DNA of 32,863 bases, from the NCBI GenBank assembly GCA_012522805.1, contig JAAYJS010000040.1, positions 1 through 32,863 of the forward strand. The letters are read 5' to 3'. Below, one piece after another: positions 7,118-21,310 of this stretch. A program made the position numbers and the translations under genes. Under the pieces are notes generated by a model. That model saw only the letters and a program-made list of their open reading frames with translations, did no database searches and was not told the origin of the DNA. The stretch's first letter is position 1. Each line of letters starts with the position of its first letter. This DNA is from Eubacteriaceae bacterium (lineage in GTDB: Bacteria > Bacillota > Clostridia > Eubacteriales > Eubacteriaceae).

Positions 7118-7621
7118 TTGAAAACAGTAGAAAAGAAAGTCGTTACGCTAAATGTAAACGGTAAAACCTACGATTTTTTAGTAGGAGATGGAATACACGA
7201 GGTGAGCGAAGGTGAGACCTTGGCAGTGACACTGCGTGATCGTTTGCATTTAACCGGTTTAAAGATCGGGTGCGATCAAGGAGCTTGCGGTAGCTGTACG
7301 GTAATTATGGACGGGTTGGCAATTGCTTCCTGCATGACATTAACCTTAGACTGCGCAGGTAAATCCATTACAACCATCGAAGGATTAGCAGATTCTGAAA
7401 CCGGCGAATTAAGCGGTCTTCAACAATCATTCGTCGATAATTGTGGATTCCAATGCGGTTTCTGAACAGCCGGTATCATCATGGCGTCGGAAGCACTTTT
7501 AGAAAAGAAACCTAAACCATCGGAAGAAGTGCGCGAAGCTCTTTCCGGAAACTATTGTCGTTGCGGAACCCACTACACGGCTGTAGATGCGGTGATGGCT
7601 TATGTCAACCGAGAGGAGTAA
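7118..7621 (+). pseudogene. Mo-hydroxylase 2Fe-2S subunit with in-frame UGA at a cluster cysteine
   Basis: This frame of 167 codons matches the small electron-transfer subunit of xanthine dehydrogenase/CO dehydrogenase-type molybdenum hydroxylases. The plant-ferredoxin-like cluster uses Cys52, Cys57, Cys60 and Cys72 (GCDQGACGSC). The second, all-helical cluster domain has Cys113 in QCGF, then the UGA codon (7463-7465) at residue 116, then TAGIIMAS, and finally Cys147 and Cys149 in NYCRCGTH. Family members read CGFC(T/S)xG, so the UGA replaces a ligand cysteine. The frame continues to TAA at 7619-7621, 5 bases before the large subunit. The start is TTG 7118 with GAGGAGG upstream. Readings: nonsense mutation (favoured, since the next gene is also interrupted), selenocysteine, or sequencing error. 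Confidence 0.75.
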
Positions 7622-7626
7622 AAACA

Positions 7627-9972
7627 ATGAGTGAAGAGAGAGTAGTACGTAAACCGTACCAAGAAAAAGAACTGAAATATGTAGGTAAAGAGATACCTCG
7701 TCTTTTAGGAAAGGATCTTGTAACCGGTAAAGCGAAATTTACAGGCGATATCAGACTGCCCAACATGGCTTACGGTCGTGTTTTGAGGTCTCCCCATCCC
7801 CATGCGGAAATCGTATCCATCGACTATTCCCGTGCATTGGAATTGCCGGGTGTGGTGACGGTTGTAACGTATAAGGATGTCCCGGAAGATATGTATATCA
7901 CCAATGGCATGTCTCCGGCAAAACACGCCAAACCCCTCGATAAAATTGTACGCTGCATCGGCGATGCCGTTGCACTTGTCGTTGCGGAAACAGAAGAAAT
8001 GGCCGACGAGGCGATGGAATATATCGATGTCGAATATGAACTATTGAAACCGGTACTGACCATCGACGAAGCTCTGGCTGAAGATGCACCGCAAATTTAC
8101 CCACAACTTCCGGGAAATACAGCTCCGCTGACCTTTTTCTTGGTAGATAACATAGATTGGGAAGAAGGCGATGTCGATCAAGCTTTAACAGAAGCGGATT
8201 GTGTCATCGATTTGGACACCAACTTGATGAGTGCACAGAACCCGTTGACAGCAGAGGCACCGACCATTATCGGAGATTGGAACGGCGAGGATATCTTAAC
8301 CCTCTACGCTTCCTGCGCTGCACCTTCCTATACCGCTTTTAACGTCGGCGCTTCCATGAACAAACCCTATGAGCAAATTCACGTTATCGCACCTTGCTGC
8401 GGTGGTAGTTTTGGCTCTAAATTGTTTATGGGTAACGTACACCCCTTGCTGTTTGCCGCTTTAATGTCTAAAAAAGCTGACAGACCGGTTATGTACGCTA
8501 TGACAAAAGAAGAACACTTTGCCGCCAACCAAATTCGTATGAACATGAAGGCAAATGTCAAAATAGGTATCAACAAAGATGCCAGCGTCACCGGTGTTGC
8601 CCTCCGTCAATGGTGTGAAGCCGGAACCGCGGCGACCTCTCAAGAAAATATGATGAGCGTCGGTGGGATCTCCATGTCTATGATGTGTCGTACCACCAAT
8701 ATGCGCTATAAAGGCGATGTCGTCATGACCAATCGTTTGCCCTCCGGTTCTTTCCGAGGCTACGGTTATATGGAAACCACCGCTATCATTGCACGCGCTA
8801 TTTTCAGAGCTTGTCGAGAATTGGATCTTGATCCCTTCGATTATTTCGTAAAGAATGCCTTGACCCATGGTGGTATGTACTATAACTCCTTGGCCATCGG
8901 TCGCGAGTGGCAAAAGAGTGTCTCCCCGGATTGGAAAGACATGGTCATTGCCTCCGGCGAAAAGTTCAGATGGAAAGAGCGTTTTAAAGGCTGGGGCGTT
9001 CCAACCAAAGTGGATGGCGCAAAACGCAGAGGCGTTGGTTGCTGCCTATGCGGTCAATCCGACCTTGGCGGTATGGCCTCCAACACCAACATTATGTTGA
9101 ATTCCCAAGGTGGTGTGATCGTTCAGACATTGATGAACGAACACGGAACCGGGGTCCGGGATGTCTATCGTAAAATTGTAGCAGACGAGTTGGAAATTCC
9201 AATCGTGAATGTTACGATTGCCCATGCCAATACGCAAACATCCCCCAGCGACTTCGGTAGTATGGCTGCCAGAAGTACTTATGCCGGTGGTATGTCTGCG
9301 ATGTATGCTTGCAAAGACTTGAAAAAGAAAATTGCCGAGCAAACAGAAAAAAGATTGGGCATTCCAGCGGAGGATGTCGAATTTAAAGGTGGATTCATCG
9401 TTCGTAAATCCAATCCCTAAGAAAAGCATGTTGTTCCTGAAATTCTTATTTCACCCAACAGTTTAACCGGAACCGGACACTGGGACGGCGTAGAAAACGG
9501 AAACCTTTGCAACATGCAGTACGTTGAAGTTGAAGTCGATACCGAAACCGGCCTTGTCAAACTGGTCGACCAATTGTCGGGCGTCGATGCTGGACGTGTT
9601 GTCAACCCGTTAGGACTTAAAAACCAAATAGAATCTTTCTATCCGGGTATCGATATGGCGTTAATGGAAGAAACCGTTTTTGATCCCTTTGACAACCGAG
9701 TCTTATCTGCAAGTTTAATCGATTATAAAACGCGTACCTTTAATGAAGTATCCCACCACGATATGACCATTTTAGAATCAAATATAGACAAAGAAAACGT
9801 CTTTGCTTTTGGTGCAATGGGTATCGCAGAACCTTGTATGACACCCAGTGGGCCGGCTGTAACGATGGCTATTTATAATGCCATAGGCGTAGAAGTACTG
9901 GAATACCCCTATACACCGCAGAAAATACTGGATGCGATCCGTTCCAAAAAGAAGAGGAGGATAAATAGATGA
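7627..9972 (+). pseudogene. Mo-hydroxylase molybdopterin (large) subunit, interrupted by an in-frame UAA
   Basis: This 781-codon frame corresponds to the molybdopterin-cytosine-dinucleotide-binding catalytic subunit (XdhA/CoxL/HcrA family). The N-terminal a/b hammerhead domain (about 20-130) is followed by the cofactor domains with PCCGGSFGSK, FRGYGYMETT and MAARSTYAGGM. A TAA at 9418-9420 (codon 598) interrupts it, but the same frame continues with clear family sequence (VDTETGLVKLVDQLSGVDAG). It goes on to GIAEP with the expected active-site Glu735 and ends at 9972, overlapping the next gene by ATGA. Termination at the TAA would remove the active-site Glu, so the product would be inactive. 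The family hydroxylates purines, nicotinate or aromatic CoA esters; the substrate here is not readable. Confidence 0.85.
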
Positions 9973-12341
9973 AAAGTTTCAATCTTTTAAAGCCACAATC
10001 TCTCGAAGAAGCTACCAGTCTCCTCGCAGAAGAAAAAACAGTTGCTTTAGCCGGAGGGACCGACCTGTTAGGCGTCCTGAAAGATAAAATTTTACCGGAA
10101 TACCCATTAAATGTTGTCGATTTAAAAACCATCGACGGATTGAATGAAATCCGTCAAGACGATAAAGGCATCAGTATCGGTGCCATGGCAACTTTATCAG
10201 AAATTGCCGAATCCGATATCATCAAAGAAAATGCCCCGGCATTGGTGGATGCAGCAAAATCCGTCGCTCACTTAAATATTCGAAATGTCGGGACTCTAGG
10301 TGGTAACCTATGCCAAGACTCTCGCTGCTGGTACTACCGTTACCCACATCAAATTGGTGGACGGGTAGACTGTGCCAGAAAAACAGGTGACGTCTGCTAC
10401 GCACTGATGGGCGAAAACCGCTACCATTCTATTTTTGGTGGCGCTAAAGTTCATACCTCTGCATGTAACCAGAGTTGTCCTACAGGGACCGATATTCCCG
10501 GTTACTTAGAGAGAGTGCGAGCGGGAGATATCGACGGCGCTGCTAGAATCATCATGAAAGTCAACCCGATGCCCGCCATTACCAGCCGTGTCTGTGCACA
10601 CTTCTGTATGGAAGGCTGTAAACGCCAATCCTATGACGAAAGTGTCAACATCGGCGCCATAGAGCGCTATGTCGGCGATTATATCTTAGAACATGCCGAT
10701 CGTTTTATGAAAGCACCGGAATTTGAAAACGGCAAATCCGTAGCGATTGTTGGTGCAGGGCCGGCAGGCTTAACCGCGGCTTATTACCTACGCGATGCGG
10801 GTTACAAAGTAACCTTCTTTGAAAGAATGGCGAAAGCCGGAGGCTGCTTAACCTATGCCATTCCGCCTTATCGCTTACCGAAAGATATTGTCGATAAATT
10901 CATTCAAGCCTTGGAAAATATGGGTGTTGTCTTCAATCTCAAAACCCATGTTGGCGAAGAAGGCATGCCACTAGAAGAAATTCACAAAAACTATGACAGT
11001 GTCATGTTGGATACCGGCGCTTGGAAAAGACCGCTTATCGGTATTTCCGGCGAAGAAATGACCCGTTTTGGTTTGGACTTCTTAGTCGATGTCAACCACT
11101 TTATTCTAGACCGTCCCGGTGCCAAAGTCATCGTAGTCGGTGGTGGAAACGTCGCGGTGGACGTAGCTGTGACAGCTAAACGTTTAGGTTCTAAAGATGT
11201 CAAATTGGTCGCCCTAGAACCGAGAGATCGGATGCCCGCAGGAACCGAAGAAATCGAGCGTCTCGTCAACGAAGGCATCGAAATCATCAACGGTTGGGGT
11301 CCAAAAGAAATCATTAAAGATGAAAAAGGCGTTTCCGGCATGGTCTTTAAAGCTTGCCCGAAAGTCTTTGACGAAACAGGCAGATTTGCACCGGTTTATG
11401 ATGAAAGTCGTTTAATGACCTTAGATGGCGACGTCGTCTTGATGGCTATCGGCCAAGTTGCGGATTTGGATTTCTTGGAAGGCTCCTTCGAAATCGAAAC
11501 CGAAAGAGGCCGCATCAAAGCCCTCGAAGGCAACCAAACCAGTGTGGAAGGTATTTACGCAGGTGGCGATGTGACCACCGGTCCGGCAACCGTTGTAGAA
11601 GCGGTAGCGGCAGGTAAAAATACCGCTGTCCACATGAACCACTACTTGATGGGTGAGAATAAAAATCTGGAATTGGAAGATTACGACCCTAAGGACAAAA
11701 ATCGCTTGCTCAGCTTTACCGCTGATACCTACGAAAGAGTCGAAGCGATCGAAGCTCCGGAATCCGACGAATTGAACGTTCTGGACGAAGATGTGTTGGA
11801 ATTGGCTAAAGATGCCATCGTCGCCGAAGCTTCCCGTTGTGTCAACTGCGGTTGCTTGGCAGTGAATCCCAGCGATATGGCCAACATGCTTATAGCGATG
11901 GGGGCAAAGCTCAAAACCAATCAAAGAACCGTCAGCGCTGAAGTCTTCTTTACCAGACGTACAAAGATTACCGATCAATTGCGCCCGGCAGAAATCGTCG
12001 AGGAGATCCTCATTCCGAAATTACCGGAAAATACCGTGGCCAGTTACGATAAATTCCGACTGCGTGAAACCATCGACTTTGCAATCGTCGCATTGGCTTC
12101 CGTCTTCACCATGGAAGAAGGGAAAATTAAAAATGCCGACTTGGTATTGGGTGCCGTTGCACCGATTCCGATTCGTTGTAGCGAAGCTGAAGCTTTCTTA
12201 ATGGGTAAAGAACCCACAGAGGAAGTAGCCCGTGAAGCGGCGGAAATCGCTCTTAAAGATGCACTGCAATTACCGCATAACGAATTTAAAATCGTCAATG
12301 CTAAGACTTTAATTCGCAGAGCGGTTGAAGCGTTAGCTTAA
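9969..12341 (+). CDS. Mo-hydroxylase FAD subunit with a nested GltD/NfnB-like oxidoreductase domain
   Basis: This is a 790-residue fusion. Residues 1-158 are the FAD-binding part of a CoxM/HcrB-type subunit (ALAGGTDLLG, RNVGTLGGNLC), with Cys residues in SRCWYY, VDCARK and DVCYAL resembling the 4Fe-4S loop of 4-hydroxybenzoyl-CoA reductase beta. At SIFGG (154-158) a block of about 470 residues intervenes. It has a Fer4-type N-terminus (CNQSCPTGTDIPGYLERV, RVCAHFCMEGC), an FAD-binding GAGPAG (262-267), an NAD(P)-binding GGGNVA (391-396) and a closing RCVNCG. From Cys629 (CLAVNPSDMANML) the FAD-subunit fold resumes to the C-terminus. It probably links the hydroxylase to NAD(P)H or ferredoxin. 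It overlaps the large-subunit stop by 4 bases and is itself intact. Confidence 0.9.
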   Translation: MKSFNLLKPQSLEEATSLLAEEKTVALAGGTDLLGVLKDKILPEYPLNVVDLKTIDGLNEIRQDDKGISIGAMATLSEIAESDIIKENAPALVDAAKSVAHLNIRNVGTLGGNLCQDSRCWYYRYPHQIGGRVDCARKTGDVCYALMGENRYHSIFGGAKVHTSACNQSCPTGTDIPGYLERVRAGDIDGAARIIMKVNPMPAITSRVCAHFCMEGCKRQSYDESVNIGAIERYVGDYILEHADRFMKAPEFENGKSVAIVGAGPAGLTAAYYLRDAGYKVTFFERMAKAGGCLTYAIPPYRLPKDIVDKFIQALENMGVVFNLKTHVGEEGMPLEEIHKNYDSVMLDTGAWKRPLIGISGEEMTRFGLDFLVDVNHFILDRPGAKVIVVGGGNVAVDVAVTAKRLGSKDVKLVALEPRDRMPAGTEEIERLVNEGIEIINGWGPKEIIKDEKGVSGMVFKACPKVFDETGRFAPVYDESRLMTLDGDVVLMAIGQVADLDFLEGSFEIETERGRIKALEGNQTSVEGIYAGGDVTTGPATVVEAVAAGKNTAVHMNHYLMGENKNLELEDYDPKDKNRLLSFTADTYERVEAIEAPESDELNVLDEDVLELAKDAIVAEASRCVNCGCLAVNPSDMANMLIAMGAKLKTNQRTVSAEVFFTRRTKITDQLRPAEIVEEILIPKLPENTVASYDKFRLRETIDFAIVALASVFTMEEGKIKNADLVLGAVAPIPIRCSEAEAFLMGKEPTEEVAREAAEIALKDALQLPHNEFKIVNAKTLIRRAVEALA

Positions 12342-13737: not shown

Positions 13738-13889
13738 ATCTTGACCAATGCGACGACCCACAAAAAAACAAATTGGTAGATGAACCAAACTTAAGGTTAC
13801 TGTGGTACGATCGACAATATACAATTGTTAAGATGCATCCTATCAAGCGGATGTTGTTGTGTTGAATTGAAAGTTTGAGGATCAATGTT

Positions 13890-15142
13890 ATGAAAGTCTA
13901 TATAGAAAACATAATTGCTAGGGAAGTGTACGATTCCAGGGGAACCCGACGGTAGAAGCAGACGTTTATTTAAGTGACGGCTCCTTTGGTCGCGCCTCGG
14001 TCCCTTCCGGCGCCTCCACTGGAGACAGAGAAGCGGTGGAATTAAGAGACGGCGGCCACAGAGTTCAGGGAAAAGGCGTGGCTAAGGCAGTAGAGAATGT
14101 GAACGGTGAAATCCGAAAAGCTCTACTGGAACGAGATCCCTTTAATCAAAAAGAAATAGATACGGTGATGATCGATTTGGATGGAACCGACAACAAAGCG
14201 CGTTTAGGTGCCAATGCCTTGCTTGCGGTTTCAATGGCCAATGCAAGAGCTGCAGCCCAATCGGTTTCTCTGCCATTGTACCGGTATTTGGGAGGGATTG
14301 ATTTAAGCTTACCGCTGGGCTTTTACAATGTGATCAATGGTGGCCAACATGCCGACTCCGGCATCGATACGCAAGAGTTTATGATTGCTCCCGTGGGAGG
14401 CAAAAGCTTTAGAGACGGTTTTGAAATGATCGTTCAAACCTACCACACACTTAAGAAGAGTCTTAAAAAACAAGGGTTAACCACCGCAGTGGGGGATGAG
14501 GGCGGCTTTGCGCCACAATTGGGAACGACGGAAAAGGCCTTGGAAACATTGGTACAAGCTATCGAAGCAGCGGTTTATCGCCCGGGAGAGGATATTGCCA
14601 TTGCATTGGATCCCGCATCCAGTGAGTTTTACAAAGATGGTCACTATCACTTTGAAGGGAAAACCATGACCTCCGAAGAAATGGTGGCTTACTACGAAAA
14701 AATCACAAAGGATTTTCCGATTATTTCCATAGAAGACGGCATGGCGGAGCACGACTGGGACGGCTTTAAGTTGCTGACCCAACGCATTGGTAAGCGCGTT
14801 CAATTGGTGGGTGACGATATTTTTGTTACCAACCCTAAAATTTTCAAAGAGGGGATCGACCGTGGCATCGGCAATGCCATTTTAATTAAACTGAATCAAA
14901 TCGGAACGGTTTCCGAGGCTGTGGAGGCTATTCAATTGGCTCGTCGTCACAATTATGGCACCATGGTATCCCACCGCAGCGGCGAAACCGGAGATACCTT
15001 TATTGCGGATTTTGTGGTTGCCATGGCAGCGGGGCAAATAAAGACCGGTGCCACTGCCAGAAGCGAGCGGATTGAAAAATACAATCAATTGATGAGGATC
15101 GAAGAAGCGTTAGGCAAAGGAACACCGCTGTTTCGTTTTTAA
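13890..15142 (+). pseudogene. eno: Enolase with a one-base frameshift near the start
   Basis: The ATG at 13890 begins [18 protein letters not shown], the normal enolase start, but a base is missing in the run around 13938-13946 and the frame hits TAG at 13953-13955. One base later the correct frame resumes ([20 protein letters not shown]) and stays open to 15142, giving about 417 residues if repaired. All catalytic and metal ligands appear kept: the His of GGQHAD, Glu of [29 protein letters not shown], the Lys of [15 protein letters not shown] and IKTGA. GGQHAD has Gln where GGEHAD is usual. It catalyses 2-phosphoglycerate to phosphoenolpyruvate. The defect is at a short homopolymer, so a sequence error or a very recent mutation is likely. 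Confidence 0.92.
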
Positions 15143-19080: not shown

Positions 19081-19755
19081 TTAAGATTCGCGAATACCCC
19101 GTACATGGCTTAAGTCCTGCACGAAGAGAACACCTTTATTGGGTTGATCCAGCTGGTGTTCCTCGAGAATGGCATCGACGACTTTTTCGGTCTCGTTGGC
19201 ATTGATAATGATAATGACCATTTCTTTTTCAGGTTCAATGTCCATATTAAAAAAATTGACACTGCTGGATACGCCGGAACCTCTGGCATTGATAATGGTG
19301 CCGCCTCTTGCACCGTGCTCTTCCGCCGTATTGGTGACAGCTTCACCGAGACCTTTGTCTACAATGGTGATAATGGCTTGGTACATGGTAGTGTTCTCCT
19401 TTTTAGTTTTAGCTTCTTTGACGTGTGTATTGGGGATATCGGGATATTTTCTACTGAAACCCACTAAGGGATAAGCAAAACAAATACCCGTGCCTGCTTT
19501 TTTTAAAGCCATTTTCTCTTCAATTATTTCGACCGCGTGGTCCAAGAGTGTTGTCGGTAAGATGCTGATCACCAGCTCTTTATGGCTTTCCGTCAAACAG
19601 AAAAATTCCAATAGTCCGCGATGGTAACAACCTCTTGCAATTAAGACGGTGCCACCTCTGACACCTTCTTGACGCAGCAATGCGATCACTCTGGAGCCAT
19701 GCCCATGGGGCACGATAGTTGCTAACAGGCTGATATCAGGATAGAGTTTATTCAT
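19081..19755 (-). CDS. Tandem PII-like signalling protein
   Basis: This 224-residue protein has two PII (GlnB-like) ferredoxin-fold domains in a row: residues 5-105 (LLATIVPHGHGSRVIALLRQEG, RGGTVLIARG) and 124-224 (YQAIITIVDKGLGEAVTNTAEEHG, RGGTIINARG). A polar linker of about 20 residues joins them. PII-like proteins sense nucleotides or metabolites and control partner membrane proteins; here the partner is the DUF1538 protein encoded just upstream. Their reading frames overlap by 8 bases (ATGAATAA), so they are coupled. Neither domain shows the uridylylated T-loop Tyr motif of classical GlnB. An internal ATG at 19386 has an excellent ribosome site, so the second domain may also be made alone. 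Confidence 0.82.
   Translation of the reverse strand: MNKLYPDISLLATIVPHGHGSRVIALLRQEGVRGGTVLIARGCYHRGLLEFFCLTESHKELVISILPTTLLDHAVEIIEEKMALKKAGTGICFAYPLVGFSRKYPDIPNTHVKEAKTKKENTTMYQAIITIVDKGLGEAVTNTAEEHGARGGTIINARGSGVSSSVNFFNMDIEPEKEMVIIIINANETEKVVDAILEEHQLDQPNKGVLFVQDLSHVRGIRES
19384..19404 (-). promoter_or_regulatory. Internal ribosome site before the second PII-like domain
   Basis: On the minus strand AAAAAGGAG (plus-strand 19396-19404) stands 9 bases before an in-frame ATG (19384-19386), exactly at the start of the second PII domain. The arrangement suggests either a recent fusion of two formerly separate genes or production of a separate 101-residue PII protein. Confidence 0.6.
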
Positions 19756-21310
19756 AATCGTCTTCTCCTTTTCCTATGCGCGAACGGGTCAGCATAAATT
19801 GATAGAAAATACCCAGTAACATGATACTTAAGATCGGCATCATGGCGACCATGGTGATCATACCGAAACTGTTCAAGATAATGTTGCTCGGATCCGTAGC
19901 ATGGGCAATACCTTGTACAAATGCAAAGATAAAGGTTGCTGTCATGGGACCCGATGCCACACCTCCGGAGTCAAAAGCCATCCCGACAAAGAGCTCCGGT
20001 ACTTTGAAAATGATGATAAAAATAATGACATAACCGGTTATCAGAAAATGGTACAAGTGTACGCCCGGGTATAAAATACGAGATAGAGCGAAAAGAATGG
20101 CTAACCCAACCCCTGTACAAAGTGCAAAATACAACCAAGTTTTTTTCACCGAACCTGCGGTGGTTTCTTCGATTTGTTGTGAGAGTACAAGAACAGCGGG
20201 TTCTGCTAAAATCGTCGTGACGCCCATTAAAAACCCGACCACCAATAAAACAATTTTACTTTGTGTGGTGGCCAATTGAAAGCCGATTAAACGGCCGATT
20301 TCCATAAAGCCGCCGTTGACACCGACTAAAAAAACAATCAACCCGATAAAACTATAAATGATCCCCACAAAGATTTGCCTTCTCGTCCTTTTCGGTAAAC
20401 GCAAATAAAAACCGTTTGCCAAAAGGAAAATAATCACAATAGGCAATAAAGCGAAAGCAACATCCTGCAAGGTGTAAGGTAAAATGTCAATAAAGGGTTG
20501 TACCAAACCACTGCTTACAGCTGGTTCCGCTGTCACTAATGTTTCGCTGTTGGGTAATTGGGGTCTAAAAAGAGCCACTGCGAAAAGCAATCCCATAATA
20601 GCCCCTGAAGAAGCAAGACCCACCAAGCCAAAGCTGTCTGCTTCGGCCTTTAAAGAGTCTCTTTGTCTGATGGCAACCCCGTAGGCTAAGGCAAGCATAA
20701 AAGGTACCGTCAAGGCGCCGGTGGTTGCACCGGAAGCATCAAAAGCCATGGCGACGTATTCTTGGGGGACAAGGGCTACGAGTGCAAAAATCACACAATA
20801 AGCCCCTATAAACACTTTGGTTAAACGCACCTGCTTGACGATTCTTAAAATTCCCACGGATATCATGGCGCCCACACCTAATGATACCACTAAGACAACA
20901 AAATTCTTAGACATCGTCTTCAGGGCAATGTTTTCAACTTGCTGTGCAAGAATGTGTAAATCCGGTTCTGCAATGGAAATAAAAAAGCCCAATACCAAAG
21001 CTAACAATCCGATACCGACAATGGTCGATAAGCGCATCAACAAACGCCCCATATTTTCACCGATGGGTGTAATACCGATATCGATGCCGAACAAAAAGAT
21101 CGTCAACCCGATGATGATCAGCAAACTACCCATGAGAAAACGGACAATGAGCAGGGAATCCAGTCTTAAAAATAAAAAATTTAAAATTAAAACCAGCACC
21201 GTTATAGGAATAACGGAATATAAAACTTCTTTCAGTTTTTCTAATAAAATCGACAACAAACCACCTCCTTCAGTCAATCGGTCGATAAGCTTTGTGTCTT
21301 TAAACTTCAT
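19748..21310 (-). CDS. DUF1538 membrane protein with two repeats
   Basis: This 520-residue polytopic protein of about 12-14 helices consists of two homologous DUF1538 halves. Repeated motifs are GFFISIAEPDLHILAQQVE versus GVTTILAEPAVLVLSQQIE, and YVAMAFDASGATTGALTVPF versus FVGMAFDSGGVASGPMTATF. The internal duplication and conserved acidic/Gly loops in membrane segments suggest a transporter; substrate and mechanism are unknown. It is encoded with a PII-like protein that probably gates it. Start choice is uncertain. ATG 21310 has a poor ribosome site, whereas AAGGAGGTGG (21260-21269) stands directly before two TTG codons (21259 and 21256), giving a protein 17-18 residues shorter that begins just before the first helix. 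Confidence 0.87.
   Translation of the reverse strand: MKFKDTKLIDRLTEGGGLLSILLEKLKEVLYSVIPITVLVLILNFLFLRLDSLLIVRFLMGSLLIIIGLTIFLFGIDIGITPIGENMGRLLMRLSTIVGIGLLALVLGFFISIAEPDLHILAQQVENIALKTMSKNFVVLVVSLGVGAMISVGILRIVKQVRLTKVFIGAYCVIFALVALVPQEYVAMAFDASGATTGALTVPFMLALAYGVAIRQRDSLKAEADSFGLVGLASSGAIMGLLFAVALFRPQLPNSETLVTAEPAVSSGLVQPFIDILPYTLQDVAFALLPIVIIFLLANGFYLRLPKRTRRQIFVGIIYSFIGLIVFLVGVNGGFMEIGRLIGFQLATTQSKIVLLVVGFLMGVTTILAEPAVLVLSQQIEETTAGSVKKTWLYFALCTGVGLAILFALSRILYPGVHLYHFLITGYVIIFIIIFKVPELFVGMAFDSGGVASGPMTATFIFAFVQGIAHATDPSNIILNSFGMITMVAMMPILSIMLLGIFYQFMLTRSRIGKGEDDYE

Follow-up and report, generated by a model that had tools for sequence, protein, structure and literature searches.

A tandem PII-like gene with a conserved, putative second translation start beside a UmpAB-type transporter gene

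The type III secretion protein Spa33 is reported to occur as a full-length product (Spa33-FL), equivalent to two proteins fused, and a C-terminal product (Spa33-C), which together form a 1:2 complex (PMC4832279). A similar internal-translation logic is described for HrcQ (SctQ) (PMC8553256), and for Salmonella and E. coli there are catalogues of N-terminal proteoform pairs that arise from alternative starts (PMC11005335). We analysed a 32,863 nt stretch of DNA from a Eubacteriaceae bacterium (assembly GCA_012522805.1, contig JAAYJS010000040.1), hereafter the window, which carries a gene for two PII-like domains (D1 and D2) with a putative second start between them. Among the systems described, Spa33 appears closest to this gene in logic: Spa33/SctQ likewise has an internal in-frame start that gives a full-length protein and a free C-terminal domain. 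However, its fold and function are unrelated, the window domains being PII-like and standing beside a transporter, and the ratio of chains, 1:2 for Spa33, is 1:1 in what we propose here from sequence alone (1:2 when D1 and D2 domains are counted). In the Rpn genes-within-genes (RpnL/RpnS) the short protein blocks a toxic long one, and these have neither a tandem PII nor a transporter.

PII proteins are known as homotrimers, three PII domains making one ring. GlnK and SbtB are homotrimers from one-domain genes, and in the GlnK-AmtB and SbtB-SbtA systems the small PII trimer docks on a transporter and regulates it; the window gene differs from these in its tandem, asymmetric domains and in being a gene within a gene. 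Two entries that we take to be structures of this kind, 2ns1 and 7egl, were among the matches of a structure search with the window model. The top match, with others tied within 1 Z, was PotN, a PII-like protein of Lentilactobacillus hilgardii (7o4x; Z 10.9, rmsd 3.4 over 92 aligned residues in the D1 region), which differs in having a single domain and is 22% identical to the window protein. We found no report in the open-licence literature of a tandem PII with an internal start, or of a PII protein made in this way. For the transporter, UmpAB of Halomonas zhaodongensis, a DUF1538 pair, has been described as an Na+(Li+,K+)/H+ antiporter of two components (PMC5484666); the neighbour of the PII gene in the window, a protein of 520 aa, is of this kind, with the pair in one chain.

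The window gene and its putative internal ribosome site

The tandem gene (19081–19755, minus strand) encodes 224 aa, for which AlphaFold2 gave a model with pLDDT 85.3 and pTM 0.82. D1 covers about residues 1–98 (19462–19755, minus strand) and was delimited by profile and structure search; a linker of residues about 99–123 (19387–19461, minus strand), disordered or of low confidence in the model (pLDDT under 50 at residues 101–104 and 110–120), carries the internal ribosome site; and D2 (19081–19386, minus strand) is the proposed free PII-like protein of 101 aa. Against PF00543 (cut-off 25 bits) the whole protein scored 57.3 bits and D2 alone 42 bits, while D1 alone fell under the cut-off at 19.7 bits. 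Judged by these profile scores, D2 is a clear member of the family and D1 a diverged one; the two align with 33% identity over 88 residues. The PII fold (ferredoxin-like) was recovered for D1, whose matches in the structure search (VIA) were mostly PII or PII-like chains. Because D1 matches fill the match list, this search barely probed D2, whose order of strands and helices in the AlphaFold2 model resembles that of D1. Of the PDB sequences, 9p1x matched the family profile best (E 1.9e-7), also over the D1 region. In its own genome (assembly 97.8% complete) the tandem gene is the sole PII match. D2 has Ile opposite the canonical ATP-site Lys in the profile alignment, the window reading NKGVLF; we take that lysine to be the Lys of the GDGK motif, and its replacement suggests that the window protein and GlnB/GlnK may bind different ligands.

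The first-pass annotation of this DNA had pointed to a strong ribosome site ahead of the second PII domain, and the site was confirmed on the minus strand. The SD-like stretch AAAAAGGAG (19396–19404, read from 19404 to 19396) stands 9 nt upstream of an in-frame ATG (19384–19386, minus strand), the proposed internal start, whose position is conserved in relatives; this ATG at 19386 opens the second domain and, counted with it, a frame of 101 aa up to the stop. Strength was borne out as well: pairing with the anti-SD came to −9.3 kcal/mol, matching the start of the full-length protein, whose own SD-like site, AAAAGGAG (19765–19772, minus strand; dG −9.6 kcal/mol), lies within the 3′ end of umpAB. 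The anti-SD used was the usual bacterial sequence as generally known, which may not be the host's own; a 16S 3′ end was looked for in the assembly and not found. As background we took part of the source genome, namely 20 stretches (of 47 contigs) and the window, together 386 kb with 253 long ORFs. Among its 2,060 internal in-frame ATGs, 47 were equally strong in SD pairing and three, the window site included, had AAGGAG 5–11 nt before the ATG. The site at ATG 19386 is beyond chance within its own genome.

Conservation of the start among fused genes

Loci were collected from 61 relatives, 67 genomes of the order, 398 genomes of the phylum and the orders and classes around the exception genomes, together with 80 named genome contigs retained from 408 matches. 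Identical proteins were counted once, and the counts exclude ORFs shorter than 190 aa, control stretches L026–L045 and a 10-base locus (L344). Several loci are one place fetched twice, and because a gene truncated at a contig end may occupy a row of its own, cluster counts are given as well. Within this set some UmpAB-PII regions (L075, L081, L089, L090 and L091; also L087 and L097) are 98–99.8% identical in DNA over 1.4–2.9 kb under very different organism names, through lateral transfer or contaminated assemblies.

The linker holds an in-frame ATG, GTG or TTG with an SD-like site in 180 of the 186 distinct fused tandem-PII genes (157 ATG, 19 GTG and 4 TTG), or in 81 of 86 clusters at 60% identity and 32 of 35 at 50%; start and SD are thus both kept in homologues, as in a gene within a gene of the Spa33/SctQ kind. 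Pairing reaches −8 kcal/mol at 177 of the sites, while three (L070, L111 and L135) have ATG at the start of D2 despite values of only −7.0 to −7.9, and six genes have no site. Equal windows elsewhere reached the threshold about 11% of the time, both in the same genes (103/930) and in the ump genes (527/4,844). In the first 118 fused genes the start falls exactly at the first residue of D2 in 108 (99 ATG, 8 GTG and 1 TTG) and 1–4 codons upstream of it in eight; it lies 12 and 21 codons upstream in the last two (L013 and L020), whose linkers are longer. A dG of −8 or stronger was found at 113 of 116 sites in these 118 genes, against 45 of their 496 other internal in-frame ATGs.

The first-pass annotation had named absence of the motif from fused homologues among the findings that would overturn its reading of two products from one gene; the motif was kept in those 180 genes, which supports that reading. 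We infer from the comparison that the short D2 protein is produced. One gene is very probably translated from two starts, the first giving D1-D2 (224 aa) and the internal one a free D2 (101 aa), and the comparison shows that selection has maintained the internal start. In every one of these genomes the short protein would be missed by an annotation that takes the longest ORF.

The transporter operon and the third PII domain

The PII gene is the second of a pair whose first gene (19748–21310, minus strand) was identified by profiles as encoding a fused UmpA-UmpB-type membrane protein of 520 aa. PF07556 matches it with 399 bits over two stretches, that is, two DUF1538 domains. It differs from the described UmpAB in scoring below the NCBIfam equivalog cut-offs, with 169 bits for UmpA (cut-off 490) and 130 for UmpB (cut-off 500), so antiport activity is not established for the window protein; PDB sequences gave no match to it at E up to 10. 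The start of the tandem PII gene overlaps the stop of umpAB by 8 nt, ump genes lie directly upstream of 178 of the 186 fused PII genes, and in-frame UmpAB-D2 fusions (L247 and L248) link a PII domain to the transporter. An apparent umpB-D1-D2 fusion (L189) was set aside, as it holds a masked stretch read as X. As judged by gene order, the partner operon is conserved, and the adjacent transporter is the likely partner of the PII domains. The terms 'P-II', 'PII' and 'nitrogen regulat' are absent from the main text of the UmpAB paper (PMC5484666). In the open-licence literature we found no regulator of DUF1538 transporters, and the only text found to name PII together with DUF1538 does so in passing, in a listing (PMC7221264). 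An asymmetric PII complex formed from a conserved two-product gene would be a candidate regulator of these transporters.

Five of the six fused genes without the internal start encode a third PII domain in some other way. One (L250) has a separate D2 gene downstream of it; two (L249 and L327) are single D1-D2-D2 chains of 361 and 365 residues; and two (L247 and L248) adjoin, upstream, the UmpA-UmpB-D2 in-frame fusion. The sixth (L329), an orphan D2-D2 gene that lacks umpAB, most resembles the final two domains of L327. The D1s of L247–L250 are nearest each other among the few compared, as are the extra D2s of L250 and L247, so that as few as one or two losses may underlie the five cases; for this reason the association of missing start with third domain (Fisher p = 4e-7) is overstated, the lineages perhaps not being independent events, and it is also too good because four of the 180 start-bearing rows have another same-strand PII gene nearby. 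These are L338, beside a separate umpA-D2 set; the two L343 rows, which are two complete neighbouring operons; and one row of L111, where there are two tandem D1-D2 genes, the other of which falls under the −8 line (among the three at −7.0 to −7.9). The pattern in the start-less genes is suggestive. The D1-D2-D2 chain of L249 gave an AlphaFold2 model with pLDDT 81.2 and pTM 0.82 over 341 residues, the high pTM suggesting that its domains are packed in a defined way, and in a structure search with this three-domain model each third matched PII chains separately (Z 6.3–6.7).

Because these genes supply a third domain otherwise, we infer a ring of three domains. One D1-D2 chain would fill two places, the internal start would supply the third, and the resulting D1:D2:D2 ring would dock on the neighbouring UmpAB-type cation/proton antiporter and gate it in response to a small ligand. 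From sequence, a mixed 1:2 ring of this kind seems to us evenly balanced between true and false, and PII control of the transport is presumed; the account as a whole, from two starts through the ring to docking and gating, is one we slightly favour. If such a mixed ring exists, a ribosome site would encode the stoichiometry of an asymmetric PII heterotrimer. Tentatively, and with a confidence that falls just short of half, we extend the reading: a fixed ring of one D1 and two D2 may be obligatory for a large set of Firmicutes UmpAB-type transporters, the count of three being reached by translating one gene twice and, where the start is lost, by a third domain as separate gene, D1-D2-D2 chain or transporter fusion.

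The two products might instead assemble apart: D1-D2 would form a dumbbell of two trimers, one of D1 and one of D2, while free D2 would form the trimer pictured by the first-pass annotation and act as a separate regulator. The conserved internal start fits this too, and the operon forms found (umpA > umpB > PII; umpA > umpB > PII > PII; umpAB > D1 > D2; umpAB > D1-D2) include ancestral-looking operons with a single PII, which make a D2-type homotrimer plausible. Taken alone, separate assembly leaves unexplained why a third domain should occur in-chain (D1-D2-D2) or tethered to UmpAB, and we regard it as unlikely, if a serious contender. A free D2-like PII gene of 101 aa was seen without umpAB within the 14 kb read (L022/L251, G041:C8), in a genome with, besides, a D1-D2 fusion (L012) and an ump set that has one PII (L025). 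D2-D2-type fusions, perhaps separate fusion events, stand behind separate umpA and umpB, or umpB, in L220–L224, L257, L261, L263 and L264; L222 among them scores as D1-D2, and L220–L224 have internal starts 4–7 codons before the second domain.

Readings without internal initiation

SD-like sites within genes have been proposed to make ribosomes pause, and here such a stretch might delay translation long enough for D1 to fold ahead of D2 synthesis, with no initiation at all. A pause needs no start codon, yet here a start codon persists even when the amino acid changes: at the start column every one of the eight Val is written GTG and the single Leu TTG, a choice to which local codon use gives an expected product of 8e-6 (with some of the genes being relatives of one another). 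We consider this reading very unlikely.

The site might otherwise be a relic of two coupled genes that fused, with no present use. The comparison of split and fused relatives proposed by the first-pass annotation found both forms, besides single-PII operons. Where the two PII genes are split, the downstream start frequently shares bases with the stop before it (5 of the 16 pairs listed read ATGA). L192 has an in-frame ATG immediately after TAA, one stop loss from the fused state. The annotation's further suggestion, a recent fusion of coupled genes, is thus upheld as to origin, since split relatives overlap in this way, and fails as to recency, since fused genes span 35 clusters at 50% identity, 32 of them with the internal start. 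A tree of the last PII domain (153 rows, 100 columns) was poorly resolved, with 12 changes between fused and separate, at least three of them forced by well supported branches. Against a relic stand the keeping of the start across that depth of divergence and the SD, which shifts together with the start where the start moves by 1–21 codons. The sister fusion in the same operons is the most telling comparison. Split UmpA and UmpB forms have strong starts, and the fused UmpA-UmpB junction has start and SD in only 10 of 211 distinct proteins (22-codon window), or in 22 of 211 over a wider junction (median 41 codons), not above background. That junction lost its start; therefore fusion alone does not preserve one, and the PII start is no relic, a reading that we reject as highly implausible. 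The pair of junctions, PII keeping its start and UmpA-UmpB not, makes a clean test case for fusion that keeps subunit stoichiometry.

It is scarcely credible that the purine-rich site merely follows from conservation of a charged (E/K/R/G-rich) linker peptide, a reading largely refuted by observations already made and rejected here by synonymous recoding and by reading frame: recoding the same peptide does average near −8.7 kcal/mol, but the real SD pairs more strongly in 160 of the 180 genes (by cluster, 72 of 81 at 60% identity and 31 of 32 at 50%), SDs lie in all three frames (122, 40 and 16 genes, with 2 lacking a match), and the window linker, KKENTT, is unlike the commoner RGV/KGV linkers and still keeps its SD.

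Elsewhere in the window, a TGA (7463–7465, within 7460–7470) interrupts what we take to be the [2Fe-2S] subunit of a molybdenum-hydroxylase-type enzyme (GFQCGF-stop-TAGI), with the frame open beyond it, at a position presumably held by a cluster Cys in relatives; it may be nonsense, a sequencing error or recoding. What is likely to be this enzyme's large subunit is divided by an in-frame TAA at 9418–9420 (parts 7555–9420 and 9514–9972), the frame again continuing. The 790-aa ORF at 9969–12341 looks by eye like an FAD-binding subunit with an inserted glutamate-synthase-like domain. An enolase-like gene changes frame near 13,940 (within 13880–14040), its first residues lying in another frame, through a frameshift or an assembly error.
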